From the NCBI RefSeq assembly GCF_013409505.1, contig NZ_JACCBN010000001.1, forward strand, positions 2,294,001 to 2,358,000: a stretch of 64,000 nucleotides of DNA, read 5' to 3'. Positions within the stretch are counted from its first letter, which is position 1. Every line of letters starts with the position of its first letter. The position numbers and the translations under genes are program-made. The stretch comes from Actinomycetospora corticicola (GTDB lineage: Bacteria; Actinomycetota; Actinomycetes; Mycobacteriales; Pseudonocardiaceae). A model generated the notes under the pieces. That model was not told where the DNA came from. It worked only from the letters and a program-made list of their open reading frames with translations, and did no database searches. Below, in pieces: positions 39,096 through 62,979 of the stretch.

Positions 39096-39239
39096 CCGAC
39101 CTTATGACAGCGATATCGGCGTTCTCGCGTCAGAGCCAACTGAGTGAATCTCGCACCGAGATAGCCGCGCAGCTACGTCCGTCACCGAGTATCTCCCTTC
39201 AGTCGCCACTGCCAACCTCTTCGATTCTCGATCTCCCGA

Positions 39240-45267: not shown

Positions 45268-45542
45268 CGTGTTCTTCGTGCGGCCACTGCCAGATGTTTT
45301 CGTTAGAAGGCACGCGCGAGCTTCCGGTTGCCATTCTCCCCAGTCGCACCGCACGAGTTTGCGCTGCAATGGTCCCTAGCGCCCGAGCGCAGGTCGCGCT
45401 TACCGACAGTCCTCTGAGGAGCTTCCGAAGCGAGCCGGCCGGAAAGAAAATTGATGCGGCGACTTCATCCAGCCGAAGGAGTTCAGCGAAGGTAATGGTT
45501 GGTGGCTGCGGCAGGCCTAAACTCAAGACAAAGCGAGGATGA
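45264..45542 (+). CDS. Small cysteine-containing protein between the large protein and the nuclease genes
   Basis: A 92-residue ORF whose TTG start overlaps the previous stop (TTGA) and whose TGA overlaps the next ATG (GGATGATGAG), so its whole length is framed by coupled neighbours. The N-terminus MTCSSCGHCQMF has a C-x2-C-x2-C set. The middle is a helix with AAMVPSARAQVALTD, and the C-terminus is basic (KVMVGGCGRPKLKTKRG). A metal-binding or nucleic-acid-contacting role is possible. TTG usage and length leave doubt, but the exact fit between the two genes is hard to explain by chance. Confidence 0.55.
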   Translation: MTCSSCGHCQMFSLEGTRELPVAILPSRTARVCAAMVPSARAQVALTDSPLRSFRSEPAGKKIDAATSSSRRSSAKVMVGGCGRPKLKTKRG

Positions 45543-47357: not shown

Positions 47358-47977
47358 GTAGACTTGCCTCTCAGCGGTTGTTCGTCGCTCGGAGGCAACA
47401 AGACGGGCCAGTACTGCTCCTATTACATCGACGCACAGGCAGTCCAAGCAGGGGCGTTTCCCGCACCACCGCTCCGTAGGGCACGTCGCCGCAACCTGGA
47501 AGGACACCAGCGCTCGCCCTCGGACTCCGAAATGTCGTCAGTTAGCGCATCAGGTTTCTATTCCACTGCGGAGCACTCGCGTTGTCGTTGCGGAAGGACA
47601 ACTCAGGCAGCAGATCGACGGACTCAGCCGACTTCGCGCGTTATGTCAGCGGTCCGAGGCCTAGTCGTGTGGTACGCAGCGCTCAGCACGCCTTGCCGTG
47701 TCCAAGCACACCACCGCCTGCAGCCGTGGCCGCAATCCACCAACCGGGTCGGGCACCTTCCAACAGCAAGTCGCCGATGCGCCCGAGACCCGGCTTTCAC
47801 CGCTCGACGACCGGGGCTGAGCACTCGGAGCCAGCCAACTCCGGACACGTCGAGTCTCGGCCTCGTCGATGGAGCGGTCTGAATCGGCTGGGCGGGCGCA
47901 GAGGGAGGCGGGTACCCGACGGATCTGATCAGCGTCGGTAACGCACCTCCAACCTTGAGCGACCTCAGCCTCGGGCG
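47358..47977. other. Spacer without a supportable gene
   Basis: About 620 bases after the nuclease ORF. ORFs on both strands are rich in Arg, Pro, Ser and Thr, lack ribosome-binding sites and show no motif. An immunity gene would be expected here if the nuclease is a toxin, but none is apparent. The GC content rises again from about 47600. Confidence 0.4.
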
Positions 47978-49783
47978 ATGCCGACGGGGAGGCAGGTAGC
48001 AGTGGTGGTCTTGAGCGCTCAGGTGTGCGCCGAACGATCTTGCGAGAGGCCGGCAGCCTTCAAGACTCGCTCGAAGCCTGCGTGGTGCGACGACCACATC
48101 ACAGCGATCCTTCGGAAAGGTCGGCTCGAGCCGCTCTCGCCCTTTACAGGTCCTGCGAAGTGGCGCCTGACCCGCTGCCTTGACTGCGGATGCGAGGCCC
48201 ACTATCGCCTTGAATACACACTTGACAAAAATAAGACCGCTGAGGCCACTTGCCGCGCCTGCTTCTGGCGATCGTGGGCGGAAGGTGTTCGCCAGAGTCA
48301 AGCTGGCTACGTACAGCCTAAAGCGGTCTCAGTAAATGAGGCACGAGAGAAGGCAAACTCCAACGGTTACGACTACCTCGGCCCTTTGACGACGCCGTCC
48401 TTGACTGACGACCCGCATCACGTCCGCTGCCAGCACTGCGGCCGCGTCAGCGCCCAGCGCCTCGGCGACATCGGGTGGGGCTGCCAGTGCCAGGTCAACC
48501 CGCGCCGGGAGCCAGCCGCAAAGAAGGAGACCGACCGACCAAAGAACCGTAATCTGTTCAAGGACTCGGGACTAGACAGCGTGCAGTGGTGGGACCACTC
48601 AAGAAACAGCGTCGAGGCATGGAAAACTCTGACGGCCAGGGCCCGCAGCAAGACCTACTGGAAATGCCCGACGTGCAGCGCTGGGTTCGCCGCCGCCATC
48701 GAAGACATGGCGCCGACACCACGGTGCCCGCACTGCGCGAGCCGCGAGCTTCGTAAACGCGAAGAGCTCTTCAACCGACTCGGCGATACGCCTGTCTCCG
48801 CCATCCCGGAGCTGCTAGAGGCGTGGGCCGACGAGGCCGACCCGTCGACAGTGCCGGTAGCGGGCAGCTGGAAGTCGAGACGATTCGCGTGCCCCAAGGG
48901 CCATCATCCTCGTGTCTCACCCTCGAGTTTCCTCCTCTCGGGCTGCCCAAGCTGCCATGGAGCCGCTACCCTCGAGGAACGGCTGTCCGAGGTCGAGGTG
49001 AACCCCAAAGCCTTCGCAATGAATGCGGAGCTGTTTGAACAGTGGCACCCCACCGCCAACCCCAAGCTCGACCCTCGCCGCCTATCCCCGAACTCACGGC
49101 GCCAGGTGTGGTGGCGCGAGGCGAGCTGCGGGCACGAATGGCGAGCCAGCCCAGCCGACCGGGAAAAGCGCCAACGACTACGATGCCCTGAGTGCCGAAC
49201 CATCCTCGACTCACTCGCCTACCACTTCCCCCAACTGGTGGCTCAGTGGTCAAAGAGCAACCCCCTCAGCGCTTGGCAAGTTCGCCCCGCAGCGTCCTTG
49301 CCCTTTGTGCCAGAGTGGGTTTGCGCTGACCATCCCACGCACGTGTGGACCGCTTCATTGGCGGCTCGAACTAGCGGTACGGGTTGCCCCTCGTGTCGAG
49401 GCTTCGGCAAGTCCGCCATCGAGCTTCTTCACCTCAAGGCCGCCCAGGAACTGTTCGGCGATGCTGCCTCCGGGTTGCCATGGCGGAATACGGCTTTCAC
49501 GGCCCGTAGTGTCTGGTACCCCGACATCACCGTCACGCTCACCGGCGGTAGATCGCTCGTGATCGAGTACGACGGAGCCTACTGGCATGGCGAGAAGTAC
49601 GAAATCGACACGGCGAAGACTAAAGACTTACTGGCTACTGGCGCCCTCGTCGTTCGTCTCCGCGAGCACCCCTTACCTGCCCTCGCCATCAGCAGCGAAC
49701 GCTATCTTGAGCTCGTCACTTACTCCAGCGCACCAGAACCCGATAGCAATTTGTCACGGATAGCCCAATGGCTGAGAACCTGA
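47978..49783 (+). CDS. Multi-zinc-ribbon protein with C-terminal PD-(D/E)XK nuclease domain
   Basis: A 601-residue protein. It has at least five Cys-pair modules: RCLDCG/CRACF, RCQHCG, WKCPTC/RCPHC, FACPKGHH/GCPSCHG, ASCGHEW/RCPEC and CADHPTHVW/GCPSC. Several match the Trp-x-C...H-x-W zinc-ribbon repeat PF14311. The C-terminus FGKSAIELLHLKAAQELFG followed by WYPDITVTL, LVIEYDGAYWHGE and ALVVRLRE fits a Vsr/DUF559-like nuclease with Asp and Glu-x-Asp active-site residues. Such proteins occur in variable islands and may be defence nucleases. Start ATG 47978; a GTG inside the first 20 codons is possible. Confidence 0.8.
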   Translation: MPTGRQVAVVVLSAQVCAERSCERPAAFKTRSKPAWCDDHITAILRKGRLEPLSPFTGPAKWRLTRCLDCGCEAHYRLEYTLDKNKTAEATCRACFWRSWAEGVRQSQAGYVQPKAVSVNEAREKANSNGYDYLGPLTTPSLTDDPHHVRCQHCGRVSAQRLGDIGWGCQCQVNPRREPAAKKETDRPKNRNLFKDSGLDSVQWWDHSRNSVEAWKTLTARARSKTYWKCPTCSAGFAAAIEDMAPTPRCPHCASRELRKREELFNRLGDTPVSAIPELLEAWADEADPSTVPVAGSWKSRRFACPKGHHPRVSPSSFLLSGCPSCHGAATLEERLSEVEVNPKAFAMNAELFEQWHPTANPKLDPRRLSPNSRRQVWWREASCGHEWRASPADREKRQRLRCPECRTILDSLAYHFPQLVAQWSKSNPLSAWQVRPAASLPFVPEWVCADHPTHVWTASLAARTSGTGCPSCRGFGKSAIELLHLKAAQELFGDAASGLPWRNTAFTARSVWYPDITVTLTGGRSLVIEYDGAYWHGEKYEIDTAKTKDLLATGALVVRLREHPLPALAISSERYLELVTYSSAPEPDSNLSRIAQWLRT

Positions 49784-50166
49784 AGCGGCGAGACTCGCGA
49801 GAGGCAGCGACTGTTCGCCCCACAGCACGCGCTGAGCCGCCCCGCGTCCTACAGAAGTTCGTCAGACCGGCTGTTAATCTTCCGCACGAAAGTTGAAGTG
49901 TCCGCCCCGTTTGCCTGAGAGGCCGGGGGCAGCCAGCGATAAGATGGAGTTCGAGAACGCCGCGAGGCGACTTCGGCCGCACCCGAGCAGGAACGTCGCC
50001 GCAGGCGCAGCACGCCAAGGGCGGATGGCAGGAAGGGGACGCTGCGGCGAAGCACTGCGCCCGCCTACGGGCGGCTGGCGGCAGGTTCTGCGTGCAGCGA
50101 AGGGCGCTTGGTCTCTGTGCGCCACGGGCGATGTAACAAGACGTGTCGGCCGCCCGATAGCTCAGC
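49784..50166. other. Spacer without a supportable gene
   Basis: About 380 bases, more GC-rich than the flanking genes. Overlapping ORFs in several frames look like shadows. GATAGCTCAG at 50155-50164 resembles a tRNA D-arm, but no anticodon or T arm follows. Confidence 0.4.
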
Positions 50167-51222
50167 GTGTCCGTCGAGTCGTCAAGTAACGAGAGCGACG
50201 TGTACGTCGATGTCGACGATGTACAAGGTGCCCGCCTCCGTGAGTATCTATATGCCGATGTCGATCGCACCCAGTCGCTTCTCGCGCAGTTGCTCGGTTC
50301 CGTTCCGAGTTCCGAGTCTGGCACAACGACTCGGAGCAGGAAGCTGGGCGCCGGTCTGCGGGGTTATGCAGCCTATGACAGCGAGCGCAAGACTGAACAA
50401 AAAGAGGAGCGAACTCGACTCGACGCTCTCTTCCCGGAACTTGAGGACCTCCTCGAAGCCTCAGGCTGGTTGACTGACATCTCCGATATACTTGCCGACA
50501 CCAAATCGACCGACTACGGCGCCGTTCTTAAAGCCGTCCAGCCCGGTTCAATCGTGCGTCTCAGGGCACCTGGTTTGCTTTTCGATGCATCTTATGTAGC
50601 AAAGGTGATGGCGGGCAGTTCGGTTGCCATTAAGGGCGCACACGAGGTTTCTCCTCAGGGACCCGACGCATCCGACAATCTCTCCTTCAACTCTGCCGGA
50701 GGAAAAGGCAAAGCTGGAAGCGGTAGCAAGGGCAAGAGTCAGCCCGCCGAAGGCTCCCTAGAGGCGCAGATCGAGCATTTCGACGCATCCCTCTTGGGGG
50801 GCTTCTCCCCAGAGATGATGCGCGGCTTAGTTCGAACGTCTCGCGGCTTGTTCCCGGACGGCCTGTACATGCTGGTCGAGGCGACAGGGGCCGCTAAGTG
50901 GACAGCAACTGTCCGTCTGCAACGAGACAGACGCTATCTCGATGCTGAGCCGGAAGTCTTGTTCTCGCGCTACGGGACGACTCCTCAAAACTGGGTAATT
51001 GTTGGCACCCTTGGCCACTTCTCCAACATGACCGGCTTGGCAGGCTTCAGCCCAGTCAGCAACCTCACCACGACTACTGGAATCAATCGTCCAGCGTTTG
51101 TCAAATTCTTGAACGACTTTCTCGCAGCTCTAGGCGGGAGCGGGATGGCCGACACGCCGCCCTTTCCTGGCTTCTCTCTTGTCCCCTTCGGGATCTACCG
51201 CGAAATTCCGAAGCCATCATAA
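50167..51222 (+). CDS. DUF6414-like protein
   Basis: A 351-residue soluble protein. Near residue 20, ARLREYLYADVDRTQSLLAQ resembles the REYLYxDxxRxxSLLAQL start of DUF6414 proteins, which I recall from defence or mobile contexts; this is unverified. A Lys-rich flexible stretch at about 178-200 (GGKGKAGSGSKGKSQPAEG) separates two alpha/beta parts. The second contains LYMLVEATGAAKWTATVRLQ and VIVGTLGHFSNMTGLAGF. The GTG at 50167 has no clear ribosome-binding site. It is the last intact gene before the recombinase. Confidence 0.68.
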   Translation: MSVESSSNESDVYVDVDDVQGARLREYLYADVDRTQSLLAQLLGSVPSSESGTTTRSRKLGAGLRGYAAYDSERKTEQKEERTRLDALFPELEDLLEASGWLTDISDILADTKSTDYGAVLKAVQPGSIVRLRAPGLLFDASYVAKVMAGSSVAIKGAHEVSPQGPDASDNLSFNSAGGKGKAGSGSKGKSQPAEGSLEAQIEHFDASLLGGFSPEMMRGLVRTSRGLFPDGLYMLVEATGAAKWTATVRLQRDRRYLDAEPEVLFSRYGTTPQNWVIVGTLGHFSNMTGLAGFSPVSNLTTTTGINRPAFVKFLNDFLAALGGSGMADTPPFPGFSLVPFGIYREIPKPS

Positions 51223-51389
51223 GTATGGGCCATATCGGACAGTTAGTCGATCCTCGCTAGAATGGATCACTGTAGGCGCCGCGGTAACCGGGCTTATCAC
51301 GACAGCCGGGACCACTTTCGGTCCCGCTTACGTCACAGGATGGGGCTCGACGAGCGCCCACAGCACAAGGCCACTGGCCCGCGATCATC

Positions 51390-52615
51390 CTACTGAGCAG
51401 CACGGATGCCGATGTTGGACCACCACGGCCGGCGTGACCCTCGTCCACTGGGTTCAGGAGTCAGGGTGAGCCAGTGGGTGGGGTTGGTGGGGTCGAAGGT
51501 GCGGGCGGCGTCGATGTAGGGGTCCATGGAGGCGCGGGAGTGCCAGCGGCCGTGGCGTTGGACGTCGCGTTCGGGGACGCCGGCGGCGATGGCTTCGGTG
51601 GCGAACCCGCGCCGCAGGCTGTGTCCGCCCCACAGGTCGGCGTCCTCGAGCCCGGCCGCGGCGGCGCGGCGCTTGATGATCTCTGCGATCGAGTTGCGGT
51701 GCAGTCCACCGGCGCGGGGGCGGCGGCCGTAGCGGTCGATGCCGCGCCACGCGGGTCCGTCGAGGATGCCGTGGGAGCCGAGCAGGTCGCGCCAGCGGGT
51801 CCAGGCGGCACTGGCGTCGAGCAGCGTCGATTCGTCGCTCCCCTCCCCCACCACTAATTCCGGGGAGGGCGCGGCGATGCCGATCGTCGTGCCCGCGCCG
51901 TGCTGGTCGGTCTTGGAGCGGGACAGGTGCACGGAGAGGCCCTGGTCGGAGGGGTGCAGGTCGGCCATCTGCAGGCGGGCGAGGTCGTCGGTGCGCAGCG
52001 CCGCCTTCCACCCGACCAGCAGCAGCGCGTGGTCGCGGGCGTCCGCGAGCACCTCCTCGGGCTTCAGCAGCCGCAGCAGTTCGACCAGCGGCTCTCGGCG
52101 GGCGGCGGCGCGGCGGCGGGTGGGGGCGACACCGGGGTGGCGGCGGATGCCGGTGATGGTGCGCCGGACCGCTTCGGCCTGGACGGGGTTGTCGAGCTGC
52201 GCGGTCTGGTGGACCACCGAGATCGCCGCGAGGTAGCCGGACAACGTGCCTGGTCGCAGGCCTTTCCGCTCGCACACCTGCCCGGCGATCACCGAACTCG
52301 ACGGGTCGGCCGGGGTGGCCGGGCGCCAGACCGAGGCGAGGTCGGCGAGGAACCGGGCCACGGTCAGCGGACCCGCCGGCAGCGCCCGCTCCCCCACCGC
52401 CGCGCACCAGGTCTCGAAGCGGCGCCACTGCCGCTCGTAGGCCGACCAGGTGTTCGCCGCCCGGGCGCCGCGCGCGTAGGACTCGGCGCGGACGGTGATT
52501 CAGTTCCCGCAGTCGGCTGCACTGATCCTCGAAGTCGGCTGCACCCGCGGTGAGACTCGTGGCTCGATCCTGGCAGCAGCGGCGGGGCTGCCGCTGTCTC
52601 GGGCGTAGCGGTCAT
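51390..52615 (-). pseudogene. Tyrosine recombinase/integrase gene with two apparent single-base insertions
   Basis: From GTG 52397 an ORF of 335 codons keeps the whole catalytic domain: Arg135 (ALRTDDLARL), Lys162, His259 and Arg262 (GGHSLRRGF), His282 and His286 (HGRWH) and nucleophile Tyr294. The N-terminal core-binding domain continues upstream in frame (NTWSAYERQWRRFETWCAA) to a TGA at 52500-52502. It then continues in two other frames (AADFEDQCSRLREL; MTATPETAAAPPLLP) to an ATG at 52615. Removing one base near 52501 and one near 52571 gives a 407-residue integrase. Decay or sequencing error are both possible. Confidence 0.8.
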
Positions 52616-52697: not shown

Positions 52698-53225
52698 TCA
52701 TGGTCGCGGTAGTTCCGCACCAGAGCGTTCTACGTTGATCGAGACCTGACGGGTGCCTGCGCGGCGGCGGGCCTGGCGGGCGATGACGCCGGCGGCGGTG
52801 GCGATCACGATGACGTCGAAGAGCAGTTGGGCGATGACGACGGCCCGGGCCATCTGGCCGACCGGGTGGATGTCGCCGAACCCGACTGTGGTCAGGGTGG
52901 ACAGCGCGAAGTAGAGGGCGTCGGTGCGGGTGGCGAGCCCGTCGAACTGGCCCTGCTGGGTGGTCGCGACGAGGTAGTCGGCGGCCGCGGCGAACAGGAC
53001 ACCGGCGACCACGGCGACGAGGAGTCCCTCGACGCCGCGGCCGCTCGTGGTGTCGTCGCTGTGCCGCGCGACGCGCCGGGCGATGGCCCGGCCCAGTACG
53101 ACGAACCCGACCAGGACGACGGCGAGCCGGACCCACAGCATGGGGTCAGCGCGGTCCCCGCCGAGCGGGACGACGTAGTAGAGCACCACGAGAACGGTGA
53201 TGTCGCGGAGCGCGCGCCACGTCAT
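52698..53225 (-). CDS. Two-helix potassium channel family protein
   Basis: A 175-residue membrane protein. Helices near the N-terminus (ITVLVVLYYVVPLG; LWVRLAVVLVGFVVLGRAI) precede a channel unit: VEGLLVAVVAGVLFAAAADY, pore loop TDALYFALSTLTTVGFGDIH with the TVGFGD selectivity filter, and inner helix MARAVVIAQLLFDVIVIATA. That is an Ion_trans_2 pore. The C-terminus is short with no RCK domain, so gating is unclear. Start ATG 53225, 29 bases after hdeD's stop, suggesting one transcript with it. Confidence 0.9.
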   Translation of the reverse strand: MTWRALRDITVLVVLYYVVPLGGDRADPMLWVRLAVVLVGFVVLGRAIARRVARHSDDTTSGRGVEGLLVAVVAGVLFAAAADYLVATTQQGQFDGLATRTDALYFALSTLTTVGFGDIHPVGQMARAVVIAQLLFDVIVIATAAGVIARQARRRAGTRQVSINVERSGAELPRP

Positions 53226-53254: not shown

Positions 53255-53890
53255 TCAGGCTGTGTGTGCCGCGGTGGGCCGCGCGGTCGGCGCGGGCGCG
53301 GCGCTCGCGGGAGCGGTGGCCTTCTCGCGGGTGAACCCGCTGATGATCGCGACGATGCCGTGGGCGACGAGAAGGATGCCCAGGACCCAGGCCAGGCTGA
53401 CAGCGCTCGTCACGGGCGCGGACAGCACGATGATGCCGCCGATCACGCCGATGAGGCCGGCGACGATCGCCCACCCCCGGCCCTTCTCGCCACGCCCGGA
53501 GATGCCGGTGACGATCTCCACGATCCCGTTCGCCAGCCAGAAGGCGCCGAGGACCAGGGTCAGGACGACGATCGTCTGCAGGGGCGAGCGCAGGCAGATC
53601 ACGCCGACGATCACCGACAGGATGCCGACGACGATGGCGAGGACCTTCGTGCCGGTCGATGCGTCGGGGACGGCGAAGGCCGCGACGATGCGGAAGACTC
53701 CGAGCACGAACAGCTGCACGGAGAACACCACGGCCAGGGTCAGCAGGGTCGCCCCGGGCCAGGACAGGGCGGCGAGGCCGGCGATCAGGCTCAGCACGCC
53801 GTAGGCGATCGTCCACCACTTCGATGCACCGATCGAAGCGACGCGGTCAGTGATGTCGACGCTCTTGGCGGTCGCTCCGGACTCGCTCAT
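53255..53890 (-). CDS. hdeD: HdeD-like DUF308 membrane protein
   Basis: A 211-residue protein with six hydrophobic helices in three pairs (WTIAYGVLSLIAGLAALSWPGAT, LLTLAVVFSVQLFVLGVFRI, VVGILSVIVGVICLRSP, VLGAFWLANGIVEIVTGI, AGLIGVIGGIIVLSAPVTS, VLGILLVAHGIVAIISGF). The repeated G..S/A..GxxxL.WP pattern is the HdeD/DUF308 signature, linked to acid resistance in enterics. The C-terminus is Ala/Pro-rich. The 17-bp dyad at 53949-53965 lies 59 bases before the ATG, with a GATATC-type -10 candidate between them, so it is probably activated from there. Confidence 0.9.
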   Translation of the reverse strand: MSESGATAKSVDITDRVASIGASKWWTIAYGVLSLIAGLAALSWPGATLLTLAVVFSVQLFVLGVFRIVAAFAVPDASTGTKVLAIVVGILSVIVGVICLRSPLQTIVVLTLVLGAFWLANGIVEIVTGISGRGEKGRGWAIVAGLIGVIGGIIVLSAPVTSAVSLAWVLGILLVAHGIVAIISGFTREKATAPASAAPAPTARPTAAHTA

Positions 53891-53948
53891 GGCTGCACTC
53901 CTTGGATTCGGGTTCTCGATATCGTCGAGTCGAGCGGGTCGTCATGCC

Positions 53949-53965
53949 TCATCCGCAACGGATGA
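53949..53965. promoter_or_regulatory. TCATCCG-N3-CGGATGA dyad, copy 1 (hdeD)
   Basis: Perfect 7-base inverted arms with CAA between. The centre lies about 67 bases upstream of the hdeD start and roughly 45 bases upstream of a plausible transcription start after CGATATCG at 53917-53924. That spacing suits an activator touching the -35 region. Confidence 0.72.
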
Positions 53966-53976
53966 CCTCCCCGAGT

Positions 53977-54168
53977 TCAGTCGGGCAGCCGGTGCATGTC
54001 GGTCATGTCGAGTCCGAGCAGGCGGAACCGGGTGAGCAGGCCGTGGAGCTGGGCTGCGTCCTCGACCCGGCCGAACAGCGTCGTCGAGGAAGAGGTCCGG
54101 GTGAGGTGCGGGAATTCGGCGACGACGTCGTCGGGCACCTGGTCGGTGAACGTGAACTCGTAGCGCAC
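53977..54168 (-). CDS. Small conserved-type protein, copy 2 of a paralogous pair
   Basis: A 63-residue protein, MRYEFTFTDQVPDD through LGLDMTDMHRLPD. It shares start (MRYEF), middle (TLFGRVEDAAQLHGLLTRF) and end (LGL..D.HRLPD) with the 66-residue protein encoded directly upstream. The predicted fold is strand-helix-strand-helix, possibly ACT-like. It is 14 bases downstream of its paralogue, so both share the promoter with the dyad at 54443. Function unknown. Confidence 0.78.
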   Translation of the reverse strand: MRYEFTFTDQVPDDVVAEFPHLTRTSSSTTLFGRVEDAAQLHGLLTRFRLLGLDMTDMHRLPD

Positions 54169-54182
54169 GGGCCCTCCTGGGA

Positions 54183-54383
54183 TCAGTCCGGGAGGCGGTG
54201 GACGTCGACCAGCTCGAGGCCGAGATCGCCGAAGCGAGCGACGATGGCCCTGAGGTGGGCGGGATCGCGGACGTTTCCGAACAGACGCGTCCGGGCCGCT
54301 GGGCTCTCGACGCGGTCGAGCTCGGGGAACGCGGCGACGGCGGTGTCCGACAACCGCGACGCGACCGAGAACTCGTAGCGCAT
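54183..54383 (-). CDS. Small conserved-type protein, copy 1 of a paralogous pair
   Basis: A 66-residue protein, MRYEFSVASRLSDTAV ending LGLELVDVHRLPD, with TRLFGNVRDPAHLRAIVARF in the middle. It is clearly homologous to the next gene. ATG 54383 has GGAG upstream, and the 17-bp dyad at 54443-54459 begins 60 bases before it, the same distance as for hdeD. It could act as a small regulatory or dimerising protein in the stress block. Confidence 0.8.
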   Translation of the reverse strand: MRYEFSVASRLSDTAVAAFPELDRVESPAARTRLFGNVRDPAHLRAIVARFGDLGLELVDVHRLPD

Positions 54384-54442
54384 GCTCGCTCCATTCTCTC
54401 CACCAGAGACACCGACCGTGACAGGCCTGGGACGGATGCGCG

Positions 54443-54459
54443 TCGTCCGCTTCGGATGA
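54443..54459. promoter_or_regulatory. TCGTCCG-N3-CGGATGA dyad, copy 2 (small-protein pair)
   Basis: One mismatch to the hdeD copy. It lies 60 bases upstream of the ATG at 54383. Confidence 0.65.
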
Positions 54460-54496
54460 CCGTTGCGCCGACTTGCGCGACGCGGGTCGAGCAGCC

Positions 54497-55663
54497 TCAC
54501 GCGCTGGAATGGTGAGCAGGTGCCGGGCCGGGGTCGTTCCCCACCGGCGCAGCGCTCTCGGCAGCTCCCGGCCGGTCGGGCCGACGCGGCTTGCTCGCGA
54601 GCAGCCCGGAGATCCAGCGGGTGTTCGGGTCGACGTCGAGCAGCAGGGCCTTGACCAGCAGGGTCAGCGGGATGGCGAGGACGGCCCCGAGGGGGCCGAT
54701 GACGAAGGACCAGAAGGTCAGCGAGAGGAACGTCAGCGTCAGGGAGAGGTCGACGGCTTCGCCGACGTACTTGGGCTGGATCACCGATTGGATCACGAAG
54801 TTGATCACGATGTAGACGACGATCACGATGAGCATGAGTTGTGGGCCGCCCTCGAGAAGGGCGAGCAGGGCCGGCGGAGCGAGCCCGATGACGAAGCCGA
54901 CGTTGGGGATGTAGTTGGTGACGAACGCCAGCAGACCCCAGAGCAACGCCAGGGGGACACCGACGGCCCAGAGGAACACCCCGTCGATCGCAGCGACGAT
55001 CAACCCGAAGACGGTGGAGACCAGCAGGTAGCTGCGGGTACCGGCGACGAACCCGCCCAGCGCAGTGACCACCGCGGTCCGCTGGCCACCCGCCTCGGCG
55101 AGCCGACGGGAGAAGTGCGCCGCGTCGAGGCCCATGAACACCACGACGAAGAGGAGGAACACCAGGTTGGAGAAGGTTCCGGCGACACCGATCACCAGGC
55201 TGCTGACCAGCCCCGCGATCTGCCCGAAGGAGACGTGTCCGAGCAGCTCCTGCAGCTGCTCGGGTCCGACCCCGAGGCCGGCCAGCCAGGCCTGCGCGTT
55301 GGTGATCAAGGTGGCGAACCGGCCCTGGTAGGTGGGCAGCAGCGTGCCGAGCCGTGCGATCGAGACGGCGAACATCGCGGCCAGTCCGATGATGATGACG
55401 GCGAGTGTCAGCAGCGTGACCGCGACGGCGAGCCATTGGGGTGCGCCGCGGCGCCGGAGAATCCCGGTGAGCGGGTGCACGCCGATGACCATGACCAGCG
55501 CGAGCAGCACCGGCGCCAGGATCGAGGCGAACTGCTGCAACGCCAGGGTCGTGATGAGCAGCCCGGTGATCCCGAGGACGAGGATCAGGCCCCGGGGCAG
55601 TGCGGCCGCGGGCGTCACCGCCGGCGAGTCGGGCGCGGATGTGGACGAGCCGTCGACGGTCAT
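54497..55663 (-). CDS. AI-2E family transporter (PerM-like permease)
   Basis: A 388-residue membrane protein of the AI-2E/UPF0118 family. Eight or so helices are visible, starting GLILVLGITGLLITTLALQQ, with the periplasmic-loop region HFSRRLAEAGGQRTAVVTAL, then LLWGLLAFVTNYIPNVGFVIG, where the N-Y-I-P-x-[IV]-G motif is diagnostic, and VIQPKYVGEAVDLSLTLTFL near the end. Substrates vary; sodium/proton antiport and signal export have been reported for relatives. The start is ATG 55663. A degenerate form of the local dyad lies 78 bases upstream. Confidence 0.92.
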   Translation of the reverse strand: MTVDGSSTSAPDSPAVTPAAALPRGLILVLGITGLLITTLALQQFASILAPVLLALVMVIGVHPLTGILRRRGAPQWLAVAVTLLTLAVIIIGLAAMFAVSIARLGTLLPTYQGRFATLITNAQAWLAGLGVGPEQLQELLGHVSFGQIAGLVSSLVIGVAGTFSNLVFLLFVVVFMGLDAAHFSRRLAEAGGQRTAVVTALGGFVAGTRSYLLVSTVFGLIVAAIDGVFLWAVGVPLALLWGLLAFVTNYIPNVGFVIGLAPPALLALLEGGPQLMLIVIVVYIVINFVIQSVIQPKYVGEAVDLSLTLTFLSLTFWSFVIGPLGAVLAIPLTLLVKALLLDVDPNTRWISGLLASKPRRPDRPGAAESAAPVGNDPGPAPAHHSSA

Positions 55664-55740
55664 GGTGGGGGTCCTCGTGTCCGGTGGGGCGGCCCAGGGT
55701 CGGTCCCCGTCATCGTCTCGGGCGGGCGCCCTCACCCACC

Positions 55741-55757
55741 TCGTCCCTCACGAATGA
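55741..55757. promoter_or_regulatory. Degenerate dyad TCGTCCC-N3-CGAATGA, copy 3 (AI-2E transporter)
   Basis: Three mismatches from TCATCCG-N3-CGGATGA, but the same length and arm positions. Listed because it falls in the right place for the divergent promoter. Confidence 0.4.
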
Positions 55758-55772
55758 TCCCCGGCGTGCACA

Positions 55773-55795
55773 CGATGTGACGCAATGTCACATCG
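55773..55795. promoter_or_regulatory. 23-bp perfect dyad between the AI-2E gene and the LuxR gene
   Basis: Arms CGATGTGAC and GTCACATCG are perfect over nine bases, with GCAAT between. It contains TGTGA and TCACA, as in CRP/GlxR sites, but with seven rather than six bases between them. It lies about 100 bases upstream of both divergent genes. Probably an operator; the binding protein is unknown. Confidence 0.65.
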
Positions 55796-55892
55796 CGACT
55801 TGGCGTTAGGCCAAACGGTGTGCAGCATGGCTCCTTGCGCAGACGTGGACCACGAGCCGGGGGGCTTGAGGTGATCGTTCTTGGGGAGCGTG

Positions 55893-58535
55893 ATGTCGAC
55901 CGTCAGCAGGCCACCGGATGGTCTCTCCTCGGCGACCGCGCTCAAGATTCGCGTTCCCCGGCAACCGCGGGGCACCATCGCGCGCCCCGAGCTGGAGGCG
56001 AAGCTCCACTCACCCGTCGTCAACCCCCCGGATGGACCCTCACCGGTCGTGCTGGTCACGGGGGCGGCGGGCGCCGGTAAGACCACCCTGGTCTCCGGGT
56101 GGGCGGCGCGTCGGCCCCCCGGCGAGGGGATCGCCTGGGTGACGCTCGATGCCGCGGACGACGTGACCACCCTCTGGAACGCGCTCCTCGCCGCGGTCGG
56201 CCGTGCCGGGGTGCATCCACGTCCGGGCTCCATCGCTCAACTCAACGGGCCGCGCCCGGGGGAGGTGGGCAGCTTCGTCGCCGAGATCGCCGAATCGTTG
56301 GCCGAGTGCTCGTGTCCGTTGTGGCTCGTGCTCGACGAGATCGAGCACCTGACCGATCCCGACGCCGTCAGAAGCCTCGAGCTCTTCCTGCGGTGGGTCC
56401 GGGAACCGGTCAGGATCGTGCTGGTCGGGCGCAGCGATCCGCCGATCGCGCTGCACCGGCAGCGGTTGGACGGGCGGCTCGTCGAGGTCCGCGGCCGTGA
56501 CCTGGCCCTGTCCGAGGTGCACGCCGTCGAACTCCTCGCCGACTACGGAATCCGACTCGACGAGGGCGATCTCCGACTGCTGCTGGGGCGGACGGAAGGC
56601 TGGGCCGCCGGGGTCCGGTTGGCCGCCCTCGCCCTGGAGAGCTCGGAGGACCCGCACCGCCATCTCGTCGACTTCGCCGGAGACGATCGAGCGGTGGCCG
56701 ACTTCCTGGTCGGCGAGGTCCTCGCCTCCCAGGCCGAGGACGTTCGGGAGTTCCTGCTCCAGACGTCGATCTGCGACGCGGTGTGCCCGTCGCTCGCGAC
56801 GCAGCTCACGGGCAGGGACGACGCCGGTGCCGTCCTCGACGAGCTCGCCCGCCGCAACGCGCTCACCGTCGAGCTGGGTGGGCACAACGGTTGGTTCCGT
56901 TATCACCTGCTGTTCGGCAGCTACCTGCGCGCCGAGCTCGAACGGCGCTCGCCGAAGGAGAAACGGGAACTCCATCGCGCTGCCGCCGCATGGTTCGAGG
57001 AACACGGCGATCCCGCGCGTGCCCTCGAGCACTCCGAGGCAGCCGGCGACATCACCCGGCTCGTGATTCTCACACGTCGCCACGGACTCGGTGCGCTGCT
57101 GGCGGGCCGGGCCGCGGACCTCGGCAGGATCACGACCGCCGTCCCTCCCGACGGCCACGTCGAACCGGCCGTCGCTCTGCTCGGCTGCGCCGTCGCACTC
57201 GACCGTGGGCAGACCGACGAGGCGGACCGACGGCTCGCCCAGGTCCCAGCCGGCGGTCTCGATCCGGCCGACGATGCCCTCCGCGCCGCCGTGGTGCTCT
57301 GGCGGGCCCGGCTCGCGGGTGACCACGACAAGGAGCTGGCCGCCCTCGAGGACACCGTCGCGGGACGCTCCGGCGACCGCGATCTCGACATGCTCGCGCT
57401 CGCCGAGCGCGGAATGAGCCGGTCCTGGTCGGGCCGGCTCGACGAGGCCGAGAGCGATCTCAACGAGGCCCTTGCCCGGGCGAGAGCAGACGGGCGCGAC
57501 CACCTCGCGCTGCCGTGCCTGGCGCACCTGGCCGCGCTGGCCTCGGCTCGAGGGGACCTGATCGAGGCCGCCCGGCGCGCCGAGGACACGATCTCCTCTG
57601 CGACCTCGCGTGGATGGTCACGCAGCGCCGGATGCTCGTGGGCGTACCTGGCGCGCGGCCTGTCGGCGTACCAGTCTCTCGACGACGATCAGGCTCGCCC
57701 GGACGCGGTCATGGCTCTCGAGCTGACAGAGCACGGAGCCGACCCGACGACCCGGTGGGCCGCAGCCTCCCTGGAACTCGCGACGCGCTTGCTGGTCACC
57801 GACGACCGTCACGCGGTAGCGGCGGAGGCGGGGAAGCTGTGGGCCGAAGGGGGCGCCGCCCACGTGGCGCCTGCGTTCGTCGCCTATGCGGCCCCCGCGC
57901 ATTTCCGGATGTGTATGCAGGTCGGCGAACGCGATCATGCTCGGCGGATCGTCGACATCACCAGGCAACGGCTCGGGGACGTCGGCGAGGTCAGGCTGCT
58001 CGAGGCGAGCCTGGCGGTGACGCGCGGGCGCGGGCAGGAGCGCCGACCACGGTTGCGCGAGGTGCTCGACGGCCGGATCCGGTGTGTCACTCCCACTGCA
58101 CTGGTGTCGGCATGGCTGCTCGAGGCGGTCCTCGCCGACGTCGTCGGCGACCGCGCGGCAGCTCAGAGGTGTGTGGCGGAGGCGCTGACGATCGCCATGC
58201 CGATCCGCGGCCTGCGGAGTTTCGCCGAGGGCGGGCAGCCCGTGCGGGATCTCCTCGCGACCGGCGCCGGTCGCTTCGGGCGCGCGGAGGCGTTCGCCGC
58301 TCAGATTCGTGACGCACTGCACCCGGGCCCGAGTCCGGCGGCGACCCTGCTCACGGTGCGGGAGCGAGAAGTTCTGGCCGAGCTGCCCTCGATGCGGACC
58401 GCGGGCGAGATCGCCGAAGGCATGTTCGTCTCCACGAACACGGTCAAGACACACATGCGCAGCATCTATCACAAGCTCGGCGTGCCCCACCGGCGCGGAG
58501 CGGTCGGCGAAGCGCGCCGGCAGGGACTGATCTGA
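55893..58535 (+). CDS. LuxR-type regulator with N-terminal ATPase (MalT/LAL class)
   Basis: An 880-residue regulator. Near residue 55, VVLVTGAAGAGKTTLVSGWA is the Walker A loop of a STAND-type ATPase; SCPLWLVLDEIEHL is Walker B. A long helical-repeat region (about 350-790, TPR-like) follows. The C-terminal LuxR HTH reads LLTVREREVLAELPSMRTAGEI, then MFVSTNTVKTHMRSIYHKLG. Such proteins bind small inducers and ATP, then activate transcription. ATG 55893 follows GGGGAG. It sits centrally among the units carrying the 17-bp dyad and is a candidate for binding it. Confidence 0.93.
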   Translation: MSTVSRPPDGLSSATALKIRVPRQPRGTIARPELEAKLHSPVVNPPDGPSPVVLVTGAAGAGKTTLVSGWAARRPPGEGIAWVTLDAADDVTTLWNALLAAVGRAGVHPRPGSIAQLNGPRPGEVGSFVAEIAESLAECSCPLWLVLDEIEHLTDPDAVRSLELFLRWVREPVRIVLVGRSDPPIALHRQRLDGRLVEVRGRDLALSEVHAVELLADYGIRLDEGDLRLLLGRTEGWAAGVRLAALALESSEDPHRHLVDFAGDDRAVADFLVGEVLASQAEDVREFLLQTSICDAVCPSLATQLTGRDDAGAVLDELARRNALTVELGGHNGWFRYHLLFGSYLRAELERRSPKEKRELHRAAAAWFEEHGDPARALEHSEAAGDITRLVILTRRHGLGALLAGRAADLGRITTAVPPDGHVEPAVALLGCAVALDRGQTDEADRRLAQVPAGGLDPADDALRAAVVLWRARLAGDHDKELAALEDTVAGRSGDRDLDMLALAERGMSRSWSGRLDEAESDLNEALARARADGRDHLALPCLAHLAALASARGDLIEAARRAEDTISSATSRGWSRSAGCSWAYLARGLSAYQSLDDDQARPDAVMALELTEHGADPTTRWAAASLELATRLLVTDDRHAVAAEAGKLWAEGGAAHVAPAFVAYAAPAHFRMCMQVGERDHARRIVDITRQRLGDVGEVRLLEASLAVTRGRGQERRPRLREVLDGRIRCVTPTALVSAWLLEAVLADVVGDRAAAQRCVAEALTIAMPIRGLRSFAEGGQPVRDLLATGAGRFGRAEAFAAQIRDALHPGPSPAATLLTVREREVLAELPSMRTAGEIAEGMFVSTNTVKTHMRSIYHKLGVPHRRGAVGEARRQGLI

Positions 58536-58545
58536 ACGCGGCTTC

Positions 58546-58562
58546 TCATCCGGTCCGCATGA
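58546..58562. promoter_or_regulatory. TCATCCG-N3-CGCATGA dyad, copy 4 (GAP-family gene)
   Basis: One mismatch to the hdeD copy. It lies just after the luxR stop and 106 bases before the GTG at 58668. Confidence 0.6.
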
Positions 58563-58667
58563 GGTCACCAGGCCGGCGGTGCCGCGAGCATGGCCGCCGA
58601 CCAGTCCGACATCGGGCACCGACCGACTGACGTCTCGGCGTGGTCCGGGTGGAGGTGAGGAGATCTC

Positions 58668-59333
58668 GTGGGCCAGGCCATCGGCGGTTCCCTCCCGCTG
58701 GCCATCGGTGTGGCGTTGAGCCCGGTACCGATGATCGCAGTCGTCCTGGTATTGACCTCCCGCCAGGCGCGGTCCAACTCGCTGGCCTTCGTGATCGGCT
58801 GGCTCACCGGCCTCGCGGTGGTCGGGACGATCGTCCTCACCGTCGCAGGGGAAGCCGACGCGAGTGTCGACGGTTCGCCCGCCGCCTGGGTCAGCTGGGC
58901 CAAGATCGTGCTCGGTGCAGGGCTGCTGCTGATCGCGGTCCGCCGGTTCCGGGGCAGGCCCCGGAACGGCGACGAAGCAGCTCTGCCGCGGTGGATGGCG
59001 ACGGTCGACACGATGAAGCCGGTCGCGGTGTTCGGCCTGGCGGCGGCCAGCCCGAAGAACCTCCTGCTCGCGACGAGCGCGGGCGCGGAGATCGCACAGA
59101 GCGGCATCCCCACCGCACAGCAGGCGGTCGCCTACGCCGTCTTCGCACTGATCGCCTCGATCGGGGTGGGGACCCCCCTGGCCATCTACTACGCGATGGG
59201 GCGGCGGTCGCAGGTGCTGTTGGCCTCGCTCAAGAGCTGGCTGGGCCACCACAACGCCGTCATCGTGTCCGTGCTCTGTCTGGTCCTCGCCACCAAGCTC
59301 ATCGGCGAAGCCATCGGTGCTCTGACGAGCTGA
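58668..59333 (+). CDS. GAP family (Sap/DUF2910-like) membrane protein
   Basis: A 221-residue protein with six predicted helices (GGSLPLAIGVALSPVPMIAV, LAFVIGWLTGLAVVGTIVL, AWVSWAKIVLGAGLLLIAV, then AVFGLAAASPKNLLLATSAG, a long helix AVAYAVFALIASIGVGTPLA, and the end IVSVLCLVLATKLIGEAI). The internally repeated PxP / SPKN helices are typical of GAP (glycolipid-addressing) and LysE-like proteins. GTG 58668 is preceded by GGAGGTGAGGAG. The substrate is unknown. Confidence 0.85.
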   Translation: MGQAIGGSLPLAIGVALSPVPMIAVVLVLTSRQARSNSLAFVIGWLTGLAVVGTIVLTVAGEADASVDGSPAAWVSWAKIVLGAGLLLIAVRRFRGRPRNGDEAALPRWMATVDTMKPVAVFGLAAASPKNLLLATSAGAEIAQSGIPTAQQAVAYAVFALIASIGVGTPLAIYYAMGRRSQVLLASLKSWLGHHNAVIVSVLCLVLATKLIGEAIGALTS

Positions 59334-59335
59334 CC

Positions 59336-59352
59336 TCATCCGCGACAGGTGA
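59336..59352. promoter_or_regulatory. TCATCCG-N3-CAGGTGA dyad, copy 5 (alkylsulfatase gene)
   Basis: The left arm is perfect; the right arm has two mismatches. It lies immediately after the GAP-gene stop and 97 bases before the GTG at 59449. Confidence 0.5.
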
Positions 59353-59448
59353 TGCCGGCCGATCCCGTAGCGCAACAACCTTGTGGCACCCGAGCCGTCG
59401 GCGCGATGAGCGCGGATCGGCCATCCTCATGAACCTGGAGACCCGGAC

Positions 59449-61251
59449 GTGACCGAGCTCGACGACGCCAACGACAGCGACTTCGCCGACGCGGACCGGG
59501 GCTTCCTCGGGACGCTGGACGACCCCGTCGTCACCGCGGCCGACGGACACGTGGTCTGGGACTGTTCCAAGTTCGACTTCATCACCGGCGACGCCCCCGA
59601 CACGGCGAACCCGAGCCTGTGGCGCCAGGGCAAGCTCACCGCCAAGCACGGTCTCTACGAGCTGACCGAGGGCGTCTACCAGGTGCGTGGCCTCGACCTC
59701 TCCAACATCTCCCTCGTCGAGACCGACACCGGGGTCATCGTCATCGACGCCCTCACCTCCAACGAGACCGCAGCAGCGGCCCTGGCGCTGTACCGCAAGC
59801 ACCGCGGCGACCGACCGGTGAAGGCGCTCATCATCACGCACTCACACGTCGACCACTACGGCGGCACCGCCGGCCTCGTCGACGCCGACACCCCGATCTA
59901 CGCCCCCGCCGGCTTCCTCGAGCACGCGGTGTCGGAGAACATCTACGCCGGCCCGGCGATGGGTCGTCGGGCCAACTACATCTACGCCGCGGGCCTCCCG
60001 GCCGAGCCGGCCGGCCAGATCGGCGTCGGGCTGGGCATCAGCATCTCCAACGGCACGATCTCGCTGCACGCCCCGACCATTGACGTCACCCACACCGGCC
60101 AGGAAGCCCTCATCGACGGCGTCCGGGTCGTCTTCCAGGTCACCCCGGGCACCGAGGCCCCCGCCGAGATGAACTTCTTCTTCCCCGATCATCGCGCGCT
60201 CTGCATGGCGGAGAACGCCACTCACACCCTCCACCAGATCCTGACCCTCCGCGGGGCCGAAGTACGGGACGCCCGCGCCTGGTCGCGATACCTCGGGGAG
60301 GCGCTGCGTCTGTTCGGCGCCGACACCGACGTGGTGTTCGCCTCCCACCACTGGCCCACGTGGGGAACAGACCGGATCACCACCTACCTCCGCCAGCAGC
60401 GCGACATCTACGCCTACATGCACGACCAGACCCTGCGGCGCATGAATCAGGGGCAGATCGGCACCGAGATCGCCGAAGAGTTCACCCTTCCCCCGGCGCT
60501 CGAGCGGGTCTGGAACGTCCGCGGCTACTACGGGTCGTTCAGCCACAACGTGAAAGGCATCTACCAGCGCTATCTCGGCTGGTACGACGGCAACCCGGCC
60601 CACCTGTGGTCGTATCCGCCGGAGCAGGAGGCGACCCGCTACGTCGAGTTCATGGGCGGCGCGGAACAGGTCCTGGAGAAAGCACGCAAGTCGCTCGCCG
60701 ACGGCGACCTGCGCTGGACCGCCACCGTCACCAGCCACGTCGTGTTCGCCGACCCGGACAACACCGAGGGCCGCGAGCTGCTCGCCGCCGCCCTGGAGAA
60801 GCTCGGCCACGGCGCTGAGAACGCGCTGTGGCGCAACATCTATCTACGAGGCGCCCAGGAGCTGCGCGACCCGCCCGCCGTGCGGGCCCCCGAGTTCGCG
60901 TCGCGCGAGGTCCTGGCCGCCCTCACGGTGGAGCAGATGTTCAACTCGCTCGGCGCCCGGATCGACGGTCCCCGCGCAGCGGAGGCCCAGGTCTGCATCG
61001 ACTGGGTCTTCACCGACCTCGGACGCACCTACCGCACCGAGCTCTCCCACGGCGCGCTCATCCACGACGACGCCGGCTACGGAAGCAGCGAGCCAGGCCT
61101 GACGATCACACTGACCAAATCGCAGCTGATCACCGTCATCAGCACCGGCACACTCGACTCGCTGCCATTCGAAGGCGACCCCGGTGTCGTGAAGACACTC
61201 CTGAGCCTGCTCGACAGCGTCGATCATCAGTTCCCGCTCGTCCTGCCCTGA
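59449..61251 (+). CDS. Alkyl/aryl-sulfatase of the metallo-beta-lactamase fold (SdsA1-like)
   Basis: A 600-residue enzyme hydrolysing primary alkyl sulfates. The N-terminus (FLGTLDDPVVTAADGHVVWD) and the binuclear zinc motif THSHVDHYGG (His131, His133, Asp135, His136) are typical. GTEAPAEMNFFFPDHRALCM supplies further ligands and VFASHHWPTWG the last His region. A helical dimerisation domain (YYGSFSHNVKGIYQRYLGWY, GNPAHLW) and an SCP2-like C-terminal domain follow. No signal peptide is present, so it appears cytoplasmic, unlike secreted SdsA1. The GTG at 59449 fits the family start. Confidence 0.93.
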   Translation: MTELDDANDSDFADADRGFLGTLDDPVVTAADGHVVWDCSKFDFITGDAPDTANPSLWRQGKLTAKHGLYELTEGVYQVRGLDLSNISLVETDTGVIVIDALTSNETAAAALALYRKHRGDRPVKALIITHSHVDHYGGTAGLVDADTPIYAPAGFLEHAVSENIYAGPAMGRRANYIYAAGLPAEPAGQIGVGLGISISNGTISLHAPTIDVTHTGQEALIDGVRVVFQVTPGTEAPAEMNFFFPDHRALCMAENATHTLHQILTLRGAEVRDARAWSRYLGEALRLFGADTDVVFASHHWPTWGTDRITTYLRQQRDIYAYMHDQTLRRMNQGQIGTEIAEEFTLPPALERVWNVRGYYGSFSHNVKGIYQRYLGWYDGNPAHLWSYPPEQEATRYVEFMGGAEQVLEKARKSLADGDLRWTATVTSHVVFADPDNTEGRELLAAALEKLGHGAENALWRNIYLRGAQELRDPPAVRAPEFASREVLAALTVEQMFNSLGARIDGPRAAEAQVCIDWVFTDLGRTYRTELSHGALIHDDAGYGSSEPGLTITLTKSQLITVISTGTLDSLPFEGDPGVVKTLLSLLDSVDHQFPLVLP

Positions 61252-61394: not shown

Positions 61395-61478
61395 ATGAGC
61401 GAGCTCGCGACCCCGCAAACGTCCCGTCACGGGGCGATGTCATCGGCCGCGGCCGCGGCCGACGGTCGTCGGTCATGA
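61395..61478 (+). CDS. Very short leader-like ORF before lapA
   Basis: A 27-residue ORF, MSELATPQTSRHG then Ala-rich to the end, with GAAAGGAA at 61381-61388 upstream. Its stop overlaps the LapA ATG (ATGA). It may be a coupling leader or the surviving start of a lost gene. Composition is unhelpful at this length. Confidence 0.35.
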   Translation: MSELATPQTSRHGAMSSAAAAADGRRS

Positions 61479-61795
61479 ATGGCCGACCCGCCCCGATGAA
61501 CCGGTCGATCGAAGCAGAACCCCGGGAGAGCAGCCGAATCGCCGGCGGCGGAACGAACCGTGTGCTCTCCCTGGTGGGGACACACTGGTTACCGCTACTC
61601 CTGGCCGTCGTCGTGGCGTTCTTCATCGGGCAGAACCGCGACCGAATCTCGATCCACCTGTTCTGGATTCAGCTGCAGGCGCCCCTGTGGTGCGTCCTGG
61701 CGATCACCGGACTCGTCGGGGCACTGATCGCGACACTCGTCGCAGCCCAGCGGGCCTGGCGACGTCGCACGGCGCGATCAGCACCCAGGAGTTAG
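61475..61795 (+). CDS. LapA family two-helix membrane protein
   Basis: A 106-residue protein. After a polar 35-residue lead come helix 1 (HWLPLLLAVVVAFFIGQNRD), the short loop with ISIHLFWIQLQAPLW, and helix 2 (CVLAITGLVGALIATLVAAQ), ending in a basic tail. The N.....I.F...Q...PL pattern between two helices is the LapA (YciS/DUF1049) signature; LapA proteins act in envelope biogenesis. ATG 61475 overlaps the tiny ORF upstream; ATG 61496 is an alternative. Confidence 0.8.
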   Translation: MNGRPAPMNRSIEAEPRESSRIAGGGTNRVLSLVGTHWLPLLLAVVVAFFIGQNRDRISIHLFWIQLQAPLWCVLAITGLVGALIATLVAAQRAWRRRTARSAPRS

Positions 61796-61971
61796 ACGGC
61801 CTTCCCTCGGCCTTCAGGCCCGCGCACATCTCACTCGTTTCGGAGGAGGTCGGCCCGTCGACGGTACTGCCATCGTCGTCGCGGACAGGGCGAGCGAGGT
61901 ACGAGGGAAACGCCGCCGTGGTCCTGAGCTCAGAGATTCGTGACCTGACCATGACGAGAGGCGCTCAACGG

Positions 61972-62979
61972 ATGACACCACGTCGTACCGCCCGGTCGCT
62001 GGCCTGCCTGCTCATCGTGCTCGCCGCGACGGCGTGCTCTTCGGCCGCCACACCAGCCGCGGCGCCGGCTGAGTCGGATGTCGTGCAGACCGTGGCCGCA
62101 CAGGTCGACCCGAGTGCCGTCACCATCCTGACCGACGGCGGCAACGGTAGCGGCGTGGTGTTCGACGCGGACGGACTGATCGTGACGAACGAGCACGTGG
62201 TTCGCGGACGCACCGACGTCGAGGTCGCGTTCGTCGACGGGCAGCGCGTGGCGGGAACGGTGCGCGCGACCGACCCGGTCACCGACATCGCACTGGTTCA
62301 GGCGCAACGGCGAGGTCTACCGGCCGCTCGCTTCGAGCCGGCGCCGCCGGTGGTCGGGAGCCTGGCGATCGTGATCGGCAGTCCCCTGGGCTTCGAGAAC
62401 AGCGTCACCGCGGGAGTCATCTCGGGGCTGCACCGAGAGGTCCCCGGCAGTGCCGCATACGGCCAGTCACTCGTCGATCTCATCCAGACCGACGCCGCGA
62501 TCAGCCCAGGCAACAGCGGGGGCGCGCTGGTCAACCCGGCCGGCGCGGTCACCGGTATCAGCCTGGCCTACATCCCGCCGCAGTCCGGGGCGGTATCCAT
62601 CGGGTTCGCCATTCCCGCAGCCACCGTGCTCGACGTCGTCGACCAGTTGCAGCGCACCGGCCGCGCCACCCATGCCTTCGCCGGGCTCGCGCCGGCGGCC
62701 ATCACCCAGCAGATGGTCGATCGGCTCGGACTGCCCGACACCAACGGCGTGATCACCGCCGGGGTCGTGCCCGGAGGCCCGGCCGCCAGGGCCGGGATCC
62801 GCGCCGGCGACATCATCCGCAGCGTGAACGGCACCCCCGTCACGACACCGGAGAGCTTCCAGGCGGCACTCCGGACGCGACAGCCGGGCGAGTCGGCGAC
62901 CCTGGGCATTCGAGGGATCGACGGACAAGAACGCAACGTCACCATCACCCTCACCGACCGACCCGCTGTCAGCGGCTGA
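61972..62979 (+). CDS. HtrA-like trypsin-fold serine protease lipoprotein with PDZ domain
   Basis: A 335-residue lipoprotein. The signal RSLACLLIVLAATAC has its lipobox Cys at 22. The S1C protease domain (about 40-225) has the catalytic triad His75 (VTNEHVVRG), Asp105 (DPVTDIALV) and Ser182 (SPGNSGGALV). A PDZ domain (about 245-330) follows: GVITAGVVPGGPAARAGIRA, GDIIRSVNG. It probably degrades misfolded proteins outside the membrane. ATG 61972 follows GAGAGG at 61956-61961; ATG 61951 is the alternative. The 155-base gap from lapA implies its own promoter. Confidence 0.93.
   Translation: MTPRRTARSLACLLIVLAATACSSAATPAAAPAESDVVQTVAAQVDPSAVTILTDGGNGSGVVFDADGLIVTNEHVVRGRTDVEVAFVDGQRVAGTVRATDPVTDIALVQAQRRGLPAARFEPAPPVVGSLAIVIGSPLGFENSVTAGVISGLHREVPGSAAYGQSLVDLIQTDAAISPGNSGGALVNPAGAVTGISLAYIPPQSGAVSIGFAIPAATVLDVVDQLQRTGRATHAFAGLAPAAITQQMVDRLGLPDTNGVITAGVVPGGPAARAGIRAGDIIRSVNGTPVTTPESFQAALRTRQPGESATLGIRGIDGQERNVTITLTDRPAVSG

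Follow-up and report, generated by a model that had tools for sequence, protein, structure and literature searches.

Palindromic dyads with a fixed -10 element are probably the operators of a MalT-type regulator in Actinomycetospora corticicola

The 17-bp dyad TCATCCG-N3-CGGATGA, which recurs upstream of neighbouring transcription units in Actinomycetospora corticicola, is in all likelihood the operator of a LAL (STAND ATPase) regulator, a MalT-type member of the LuxR family encoded among those units (55893..58535, + strand), and would act through promoters whose -10 element lies at a fixed distance. Our high confidence extends to the regulator, its operator and the promoters, and not to the purpose of the regulon. 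Positions are those of the window, the whole stretch of 64,000 nucleotides that was analysed. On the model of MalT, a signal would switch on the sensor part and, with ATP bound, the regulator would oligomerise. Its GerE domains would then bind two inverted GGRTGA half-sites in the place of a -35 box, and RNA polymerase would be recruited to a -10 element beginning 23-24 nt past the dyad. The predicted transcription start is some 35 nt beyond the dyad. This scheme would serve six promoters, those of hdeD (perhaps together with an ion channel), a pair of small proteins, an AI-2E permease, SfLAP, an alkylsulfatase and an HtrA-type protease.

The only perfect dyad of the set (53949..53965, - strand) faces an hdeD-like gene of the DUF308 type (53255..53890, -), which matched the NCBIfam HdeD model below its cut-off, and the -10-like GACGAT of this promoter lies at 53921..53926 (-); an ion-channel gene downstream (52698-53222) may be co-transcribed. 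A dyad with one mismatch (54443..54459, -) and the -10-like CACGGT at 54415..54420 (-) precede two genes read in the same direction, encoding the 66-residue small protein A, which begins MRYEF (54183..54383, -), and its 63-residue paralogue B (53977..54168, -), neither with a Pfam match. The dyad with three mismatches (55741..55757, -), followed by GACGAT at 55712..55717 (-), faces the gene of an AI-2E family permease (54497..55663, -). Past the regulator gene, a dyad with one mismatch (58546..58562, +) and GAGCAT at 58586..58591 (+) face the gene for SfLAP (58668..59333, +), a Sap or sulfolipid-1-addressing protein that an earlier note on this DNA had called a GAP-family gene, and a dyad with two mismatches (59336..59352, +) and CAACCT at 59376..59381 (+) face the gene of an alkylsulfatase-like enzyme with an HSHVDH metal motif (59449..61251, +). 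That note had reported these five dyads at these positions and with these mismatch counts, and it was right on both, as it was on the 59 and 60 bases that separate the first two from the start codons of hdeD and the small-protein pair. Its statement that each dyad lies upstream of a unit of its own holds for all five, although the AI-2E dyad is only 6 bases from the GTG listed as the start (55735). From the position of the promoter, the AI-2E gene probably starts downstream of this GTG, most likely at ATG 55663, 78 bases from the dyad.

A sixth dyad, which the earlier note had missed, lies at 61831..61847 (+; TCACTCGTTTCGGAGGA). It has three mismatches to TCATCCG-N3-CGGATGA and two to the form TCAYCCG-N3-CGGRTGA, to which the consensus widens in relatives, and with the -10-like CATCGT at 61871..61876 (+) it faces the gene of an HtrA/Do-type serine protease (61951..62979, +; start at 61951 or at GTG 61918). 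Between the alkylsulfatase and protease genes lies a LapA-domain gene (61475-61795) that has no operator of its own in the window, unlike LapA-like genes elsewhere, which are found among the predicted targets described below (7 of 292). In other parts of the window there are a dyad at 34383, with at most two mismatches to the wider consensus and no -10 element, and two dyads with three mismatches that do have one, at 4767 and 24607. No dyad with a -10 element was found in the window for a promoter of the regulator gene itself.

The dyads are strongly clustered. In the host genome (6,166,488 bases, one contig) there are one perfect site, four sites with at most one mismatch and 15 with at most two, and the interval between 53949 and 59352 holds the perfect one, three of the four and four of the 15; the reversed pattern, used as a control, gives two sites at up to two mismatches. 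With the site density in the rest of the genome as the yardstick, and for a block picked beforehand for its sites, the clustering has a P of about 1e-10 at either level. The motif search of the full genome that the earlier note had proposed as a check thus returns extreme clustering in the block at zero to two mismatches. Up to three mismatches, the window has seven dyads against 4.38 expected, a number reached by 14 of 100 shuffles, so that there is no enrichment at this level and the letters of the 55741 site would not by themselves justify claiming it; in the genome as a whole there are 207 dyads of this kind, against 75 for the reversed control.

Even scatter of the motif in coding regions, which the earlier note had held would speak against a regulon, describes part of the picture. 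Eight of the 11 remote sites with at most two mismatches fall inside called reading frames, where the crude gene caller also placed two sites of the window, and three of the 11 (L006, L011 and L014) have a -10 element, a share not clearly above chance; the block itself is strongly clustered. The remote site with one mismatch (C1:1944301) has no -10 element. At L011:1501 (C1:3732919), an intergenic dyad with two mismatches and CACCGT at +24 faces a membrane-like gene; as the sole remote site that is both intergenic and provided with a -10 element, it is a possible seventh, distant target. It seems that the regulon is local and that distant members, if any, are few. One 17-mer (GCATCAGGAGCCGATGA, read directly or as its complement) is found at three distant places of the host genome (G000), C1:4737, 16838 and 1947781, perhaps as a repeated element.

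All five dyads named by the earlier note are followed by an xAnnnT element that resembles a -10 box, starts 23-24 nt past the 3' end of the dyad and faces the gene; its A stands at +24 or +25 from that end and its T four bases further. The chance of finding xAnnnT at +24/+25 is 0.043 per orientation, and five out of five corresponds to 1.4e-7. At the loci of LAL genes in other genomes, the occurrence of the element past the dyads peaks at +24/+25 and nowhere else. Of 250 orientations that face a called gene, 31% and 26% have it at +24/+25, and a peak at the same place is seen in 290 orientations that do not (18% and 12%), which we attribute to the crude gene caller. The share of dyads with the element, for zero, one, two and three mismatches, is 94, 91, 74 and 18% in loci L111-L150, 80, 71, 64 and 19% in L075-L094, and 69, 81, 71 and 24% (not a monotone series) in L151-L230, on a background of 5-8%. 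The start codons of 31 predicted targets that begin with ATG lie at +35 to +37, in a search that covered +34 onward only, the pattern that leaderless mRNAs with starts in this range would give.

The dyads are also conserved upstream of orthologous genes, a point that the earlier note had made decisive for its proposal. The nearest relative of the regulator (69% identical) is encoded at locus L075 of genome G233, in another genus of the same family, and beside it stand, in the same order, relatives of hdeD (73%), of the small proteins (70% and 41% when compared with protein A) and of the AI-2E permease (71%). Measured against the wider consensus, the dyads before these three units have one, two and two mismatches, and every one of them is followed by a -10 element, which for AI-2E is again GACGAT. 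The 55741 dyad was considered as the operator of the regulator gene itself and was rejected, since its -10 element faces AI-2E both in the window and in L075.

The G+C content of the block is 68-72%, as compared with 72-80% in the first 36 kb of the window and 58-68% in the adjoining stretch from 38 to 51 kb. A gene resembling those of tyrosine recombinases (51390-52397; matches below the NCBIfam cut-offs) stands beside the regulon, and the stretch of low G+C that ends at this gene (38000-52400) is probably a genomic island. Because of this setting, the recombinase-like gene and the closest relative being in another genus, it is likely that the block arrived by horizontal transfer.

Beyond L075, the dyad keeps company with LAL genes. 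Exact matches to the wider consensus number 0 to 5 in each of 28 genomes of the family, with at least one in 20 of them, and the reversed control has none. The genomes of 18 congeners have 36 exact sites between them. Of these, 13 fall inside 5 kb of a LAL match, where 0.2 would be expected, and 19 inside 20 kb, where 0.62 would be; the remaining 17 lie farther away. These distances use 66 LAL matches (E up to about 1e-20, some of them fragments), weaker rows and second pieces of one gene being omitted. The numbers of LAL genes and of sites in the 18 genomes are moderately correlated (Spearman 0.62 and 0.64), and two genomes with LAL matches, G014 and G017, have no exact site. Around 80 named loci of LAL relatives across Actinomycetota we found 176 dyads with at most two mismatches, against four for the reversed control, and 131 of the 176 have the -10 element; 19 of the 80 loci have no such dyad. 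Five of the named loci (L152, L192, L204, L208 and L218) belong to the same genomes as G174, G016, G002, G015 and G001, and the sets overlap to that extent. The operator with its fixed -10 element occurs around LAL genes of Pseudonocardiaceae, Rhodococcus, Kribbella, Streptomyces and Nitriliruptorales. Two dyads with a -10 element (L202:4583 and L211:10780) lie beside LAL relatives of Chloroflexota (Anaerolineales and Caldilineaceae); the operator may therefore reach beyond Actinomycetota, or these two sites could be due to chance.

As to purpose, the earlier note had spoken of a membrane and envelope-stress block. This is plausible but unproven: membrane proteins are overrepresented among the targets, where sulfatases and hdeD-like proteins also occur, but the only homologue that has been studied through its deletion reacts to maltose. 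We predicted 292 direct targets in the vicinity of LAL genes, with a crude gene caller some of whose frames look wrong; the commonest are small proteins (31), followed by DUF7144 (28) and DUF1269 proteins (25), the LAL gene itself (17), AI-2E permeases (15), MFS transporters (15) and SHOCT/PLDc_N proteins (14); arylsulfatases (9), GH15 enzymes (7), LapA-like (7) and hdeD-like proteins (6) and alkylsulfatases (5) form smaller groups. These family names were taken from representatives, and the LapA and BrkB ones do not reach the Pfam cut-offs. A membrane segment is predicted in 54% of the 292 targets and in 32% of 622 other called genes (L075-L150 and the window). When alkylsulfatase homologues of the genus were chosen by the enzyme alone (13 rows, from which the window and the unjudgeable fragment L243 were left out), ten of the 11 that could be judged had, within 420 bases upstream and facing the gene, a dyad with at most two mismatches and a -10 element, the exception being L234. 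Five of the ten (L232, L235, L238, L239 and L242) are on contigs without a LAL gene among the matches listed, so that in these cases the regulator would have to work from afar. The small-protein homologues provide a weaker test, with operator and -10 element in 13 of 30 rows, three of which are those of the window or L075; relatives of these proteins are present in 29 of 249 genomes of the family. In the Nitriliruptoraceae, relatives of the alkylsulfatase and small proteins adjoin a LAL gene at L154 and L155, and predicted operators face an alkylsulfatase gene (L154), hdeD-like genes (L154, L155 and L156), a small-protein gene (L155) and a LapA-like gene (L156). This recurrence suggests that the gene set of the window is old or has travelled together.

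These findings favour upkeep of the membrane or envelope as the purpose, with sulfatases as a second theme; in the window, the envelope would be maintained or defended, and alkyl sulfates perhaps used as well. The regulator could instead work exactly as proposed and serve carbon or nutrient status, a reading that we take seriously but find doubtful. It agrees with the response to maltose and the links to amino-acid metabolism described for Actinoplanes in the parts of PMC7567727 drawn on here, and the targets predicted in other genomes include amino-acid permeases, glutaminases and GH15 enzymes. Against it, sugar uptake or breakdown is not suggested by any of the six units in the window, and the targets met most often are small, membrane or unnamed proteins. 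Genes for hdeD-like proteins, glutaminases, chloride channels, arginine deiminases and amino-acid permeases also occur near LAL genes, and acid stress is one reading among several.

The protein at 55893-58535 has the domains expected of such a regulator, namely a C-terminal GerE helix-turn-helix (PF00196, 45.4 bits with a cut-off of 23.5) and an N-terminal ATP-binding domain (AAA_22, 38.3 bits with a cut-off of 27) in which the alignment keeps the Walker A motif GxxGxGKTT. Its sensor region matches TPR_MalT with an E of 9.5e-9 but at 35.4 bits, below the cut-off of 45. Residues 52-432 match the structure of Escherichia coli MalT (8bob, E 1.1e-40), and the NCBIfam MalT model gives 243.9 bits, below the cut-off of 537 for true MalT. 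It is the sole full-length LAL match in the host genome; there are seven other matches, and the five of these that are listed span the GerE end only. The earlier note had proposed one shared activator, with this protein as first candidate, and the clustering of the dyads with LAL genes and the Actinoplanes precedent (PMC7567727) strongly support it: the protein is very probably the activator of the units that bear the dyad, to which it is predicted to bind.

GerE domains of several classes bind dyads, and the seven other GerE-domain matches in the genome offer some choice of another activator encoded elsewhere, such as the NarL/DosR-type response regulator that the earlier note had named as an alternative, with the MalT-type protein as a bystander. 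We consider this quite improbable. Across the phylum, dyads with the fixed -10 element track LAL genes, and two congeners that are 98% complete and lack a LAL match (G008 and G013) keep other GerE-domain genes, yet none of their 12 dyads with at most one mismatch has a -10 element; on this result we reject the dyad as a DosR/NarL site. In the congeners G003 and G007, picked as rich in LAL genes, 34 of 45 such dyads have the element (Fisher 1.9e-6 against the pair without LAL matches). The operator described in Actinoplanes, moreover, belongs to a MalT-type protein (PMC7567727). In a third genome without a LAL match, G010, four of ten dyads have the -10 element, three of them on one contig; this genome is 59% complete and a LAL gene may be in the missing part. 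One of its loci (L303, G010:C271) has four near-consensus dyads in 5 kb, three of them with the element.

That the dyads are matches by chance or composition, without function, is scarcely credible: the unremarkable window count at three mismatches and the remote sites in reading frames agree with such an origin, which is likely for most remote sites, but for the block it is ruled out at up to two mismatches, and the genome-wide clustering, the reversed-pattern controls, the fixed -10 element, the conservation and the contrast with congeners lacking LAL genes all stand against it.

A broader proposal, which we make tentatively and which could well prove wrong, is that a large share of the MalT/LAL-type regulators in Actinomycetota have one operator in common, TCAYCCG-N3-CGGRTGA with a -10 element after it at +24/25, and that in the window this operator defines a stand-alone response concerned with the envelope and alkyl sulfates (detergents), of which unannotated proteins of about 60-90 residues are a core part. 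If this is true, the regulons of many unstudied LAL proteins could be read from sequence. An operator with a fixed -10 element across the phylum suggests that the code of a large and poorly understood class of regulators can be read, and the link of this class to recurring membrane proteins, sulfatases and an unnamed family of small proteins makes its inducer and purpose testable.

Among known systems, the Streptomyces proteins SCO6993, SCO0877 and SCO7173 belong to the same ATP-binding LuxR class. In the passages of PMC9628970 used here, SCO6993 is a repressor whose footprints lie on other sequences, with no consensus predictable, whereas we propose an activator and a dyad; the passages searched in the study of SCO0877 and SCO7173 (PMC3282765) contain no such motif. 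Our literature search found no report of the operator besides PMC7567727, an absence that is weakly informative given the thin coverage of subscription papers. E. coli MalT is a related protein, by the 8bob match and the NCBIfam MalT model, and its boxes, according to PMC7567727, have a GGA(T/G)GA core near -35. The window differs in that its half-sites are inverted with a 5-nt spacer, that no maltose genes are involved and that its protein falls below the cut-off for true MalT. Control of maltose genes, a trait of true MalT, is absent from the six units of the window and, as far as PMC7567727 was consulted, from Actinoplanes as well.

The closest precedent is that of Actinoplanes sp. SE50/110, in which, according to PMC7567727, the MalT-like LuxR regulator ACSP50_3915 activates a region of 51 genes. 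Its operator, TCATCC-5nt-GGATGA, was found to precede 17 start sites by 34.4 +/- 1.0 nt and to overlap the -35 region; deletion of the regulator lowered 42 of the 51 genes and its overexpression raised at least 39, expression of the region is higher on maltose, and the same site was found in four more genomes of Micromonosporaceae. The palindrome is identical, letter for letter, to the core of the dyad described here, and in both cases a MalT-like LuxR gene lies inside the cluster with TCATCC-N5-GGATGA upstream of several units around it. The start-site distance measured there fits the position of the -10 element in the window, where the starts are predicted; activation and the start-site position are taken over from this precedent by analogy. 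In a related region of Actinoplanes utahensis (L183), an hdeD-like gene, a gene for a class-II glutamine amidotransferase and others have operators with a -10 element in front of them. The two systems differ in size, 51 genes against six units, and in trigger, maltose there and no maltose-like unit among the six here; alkylsulfatase, AI-2E and HdeD do not occur in the main text of PMC7567727. The regulator-operator pair is thus known in kind, and the novelty lies in the target set, in the occurrence across the phylum and in the fixed geometry of the promoters.
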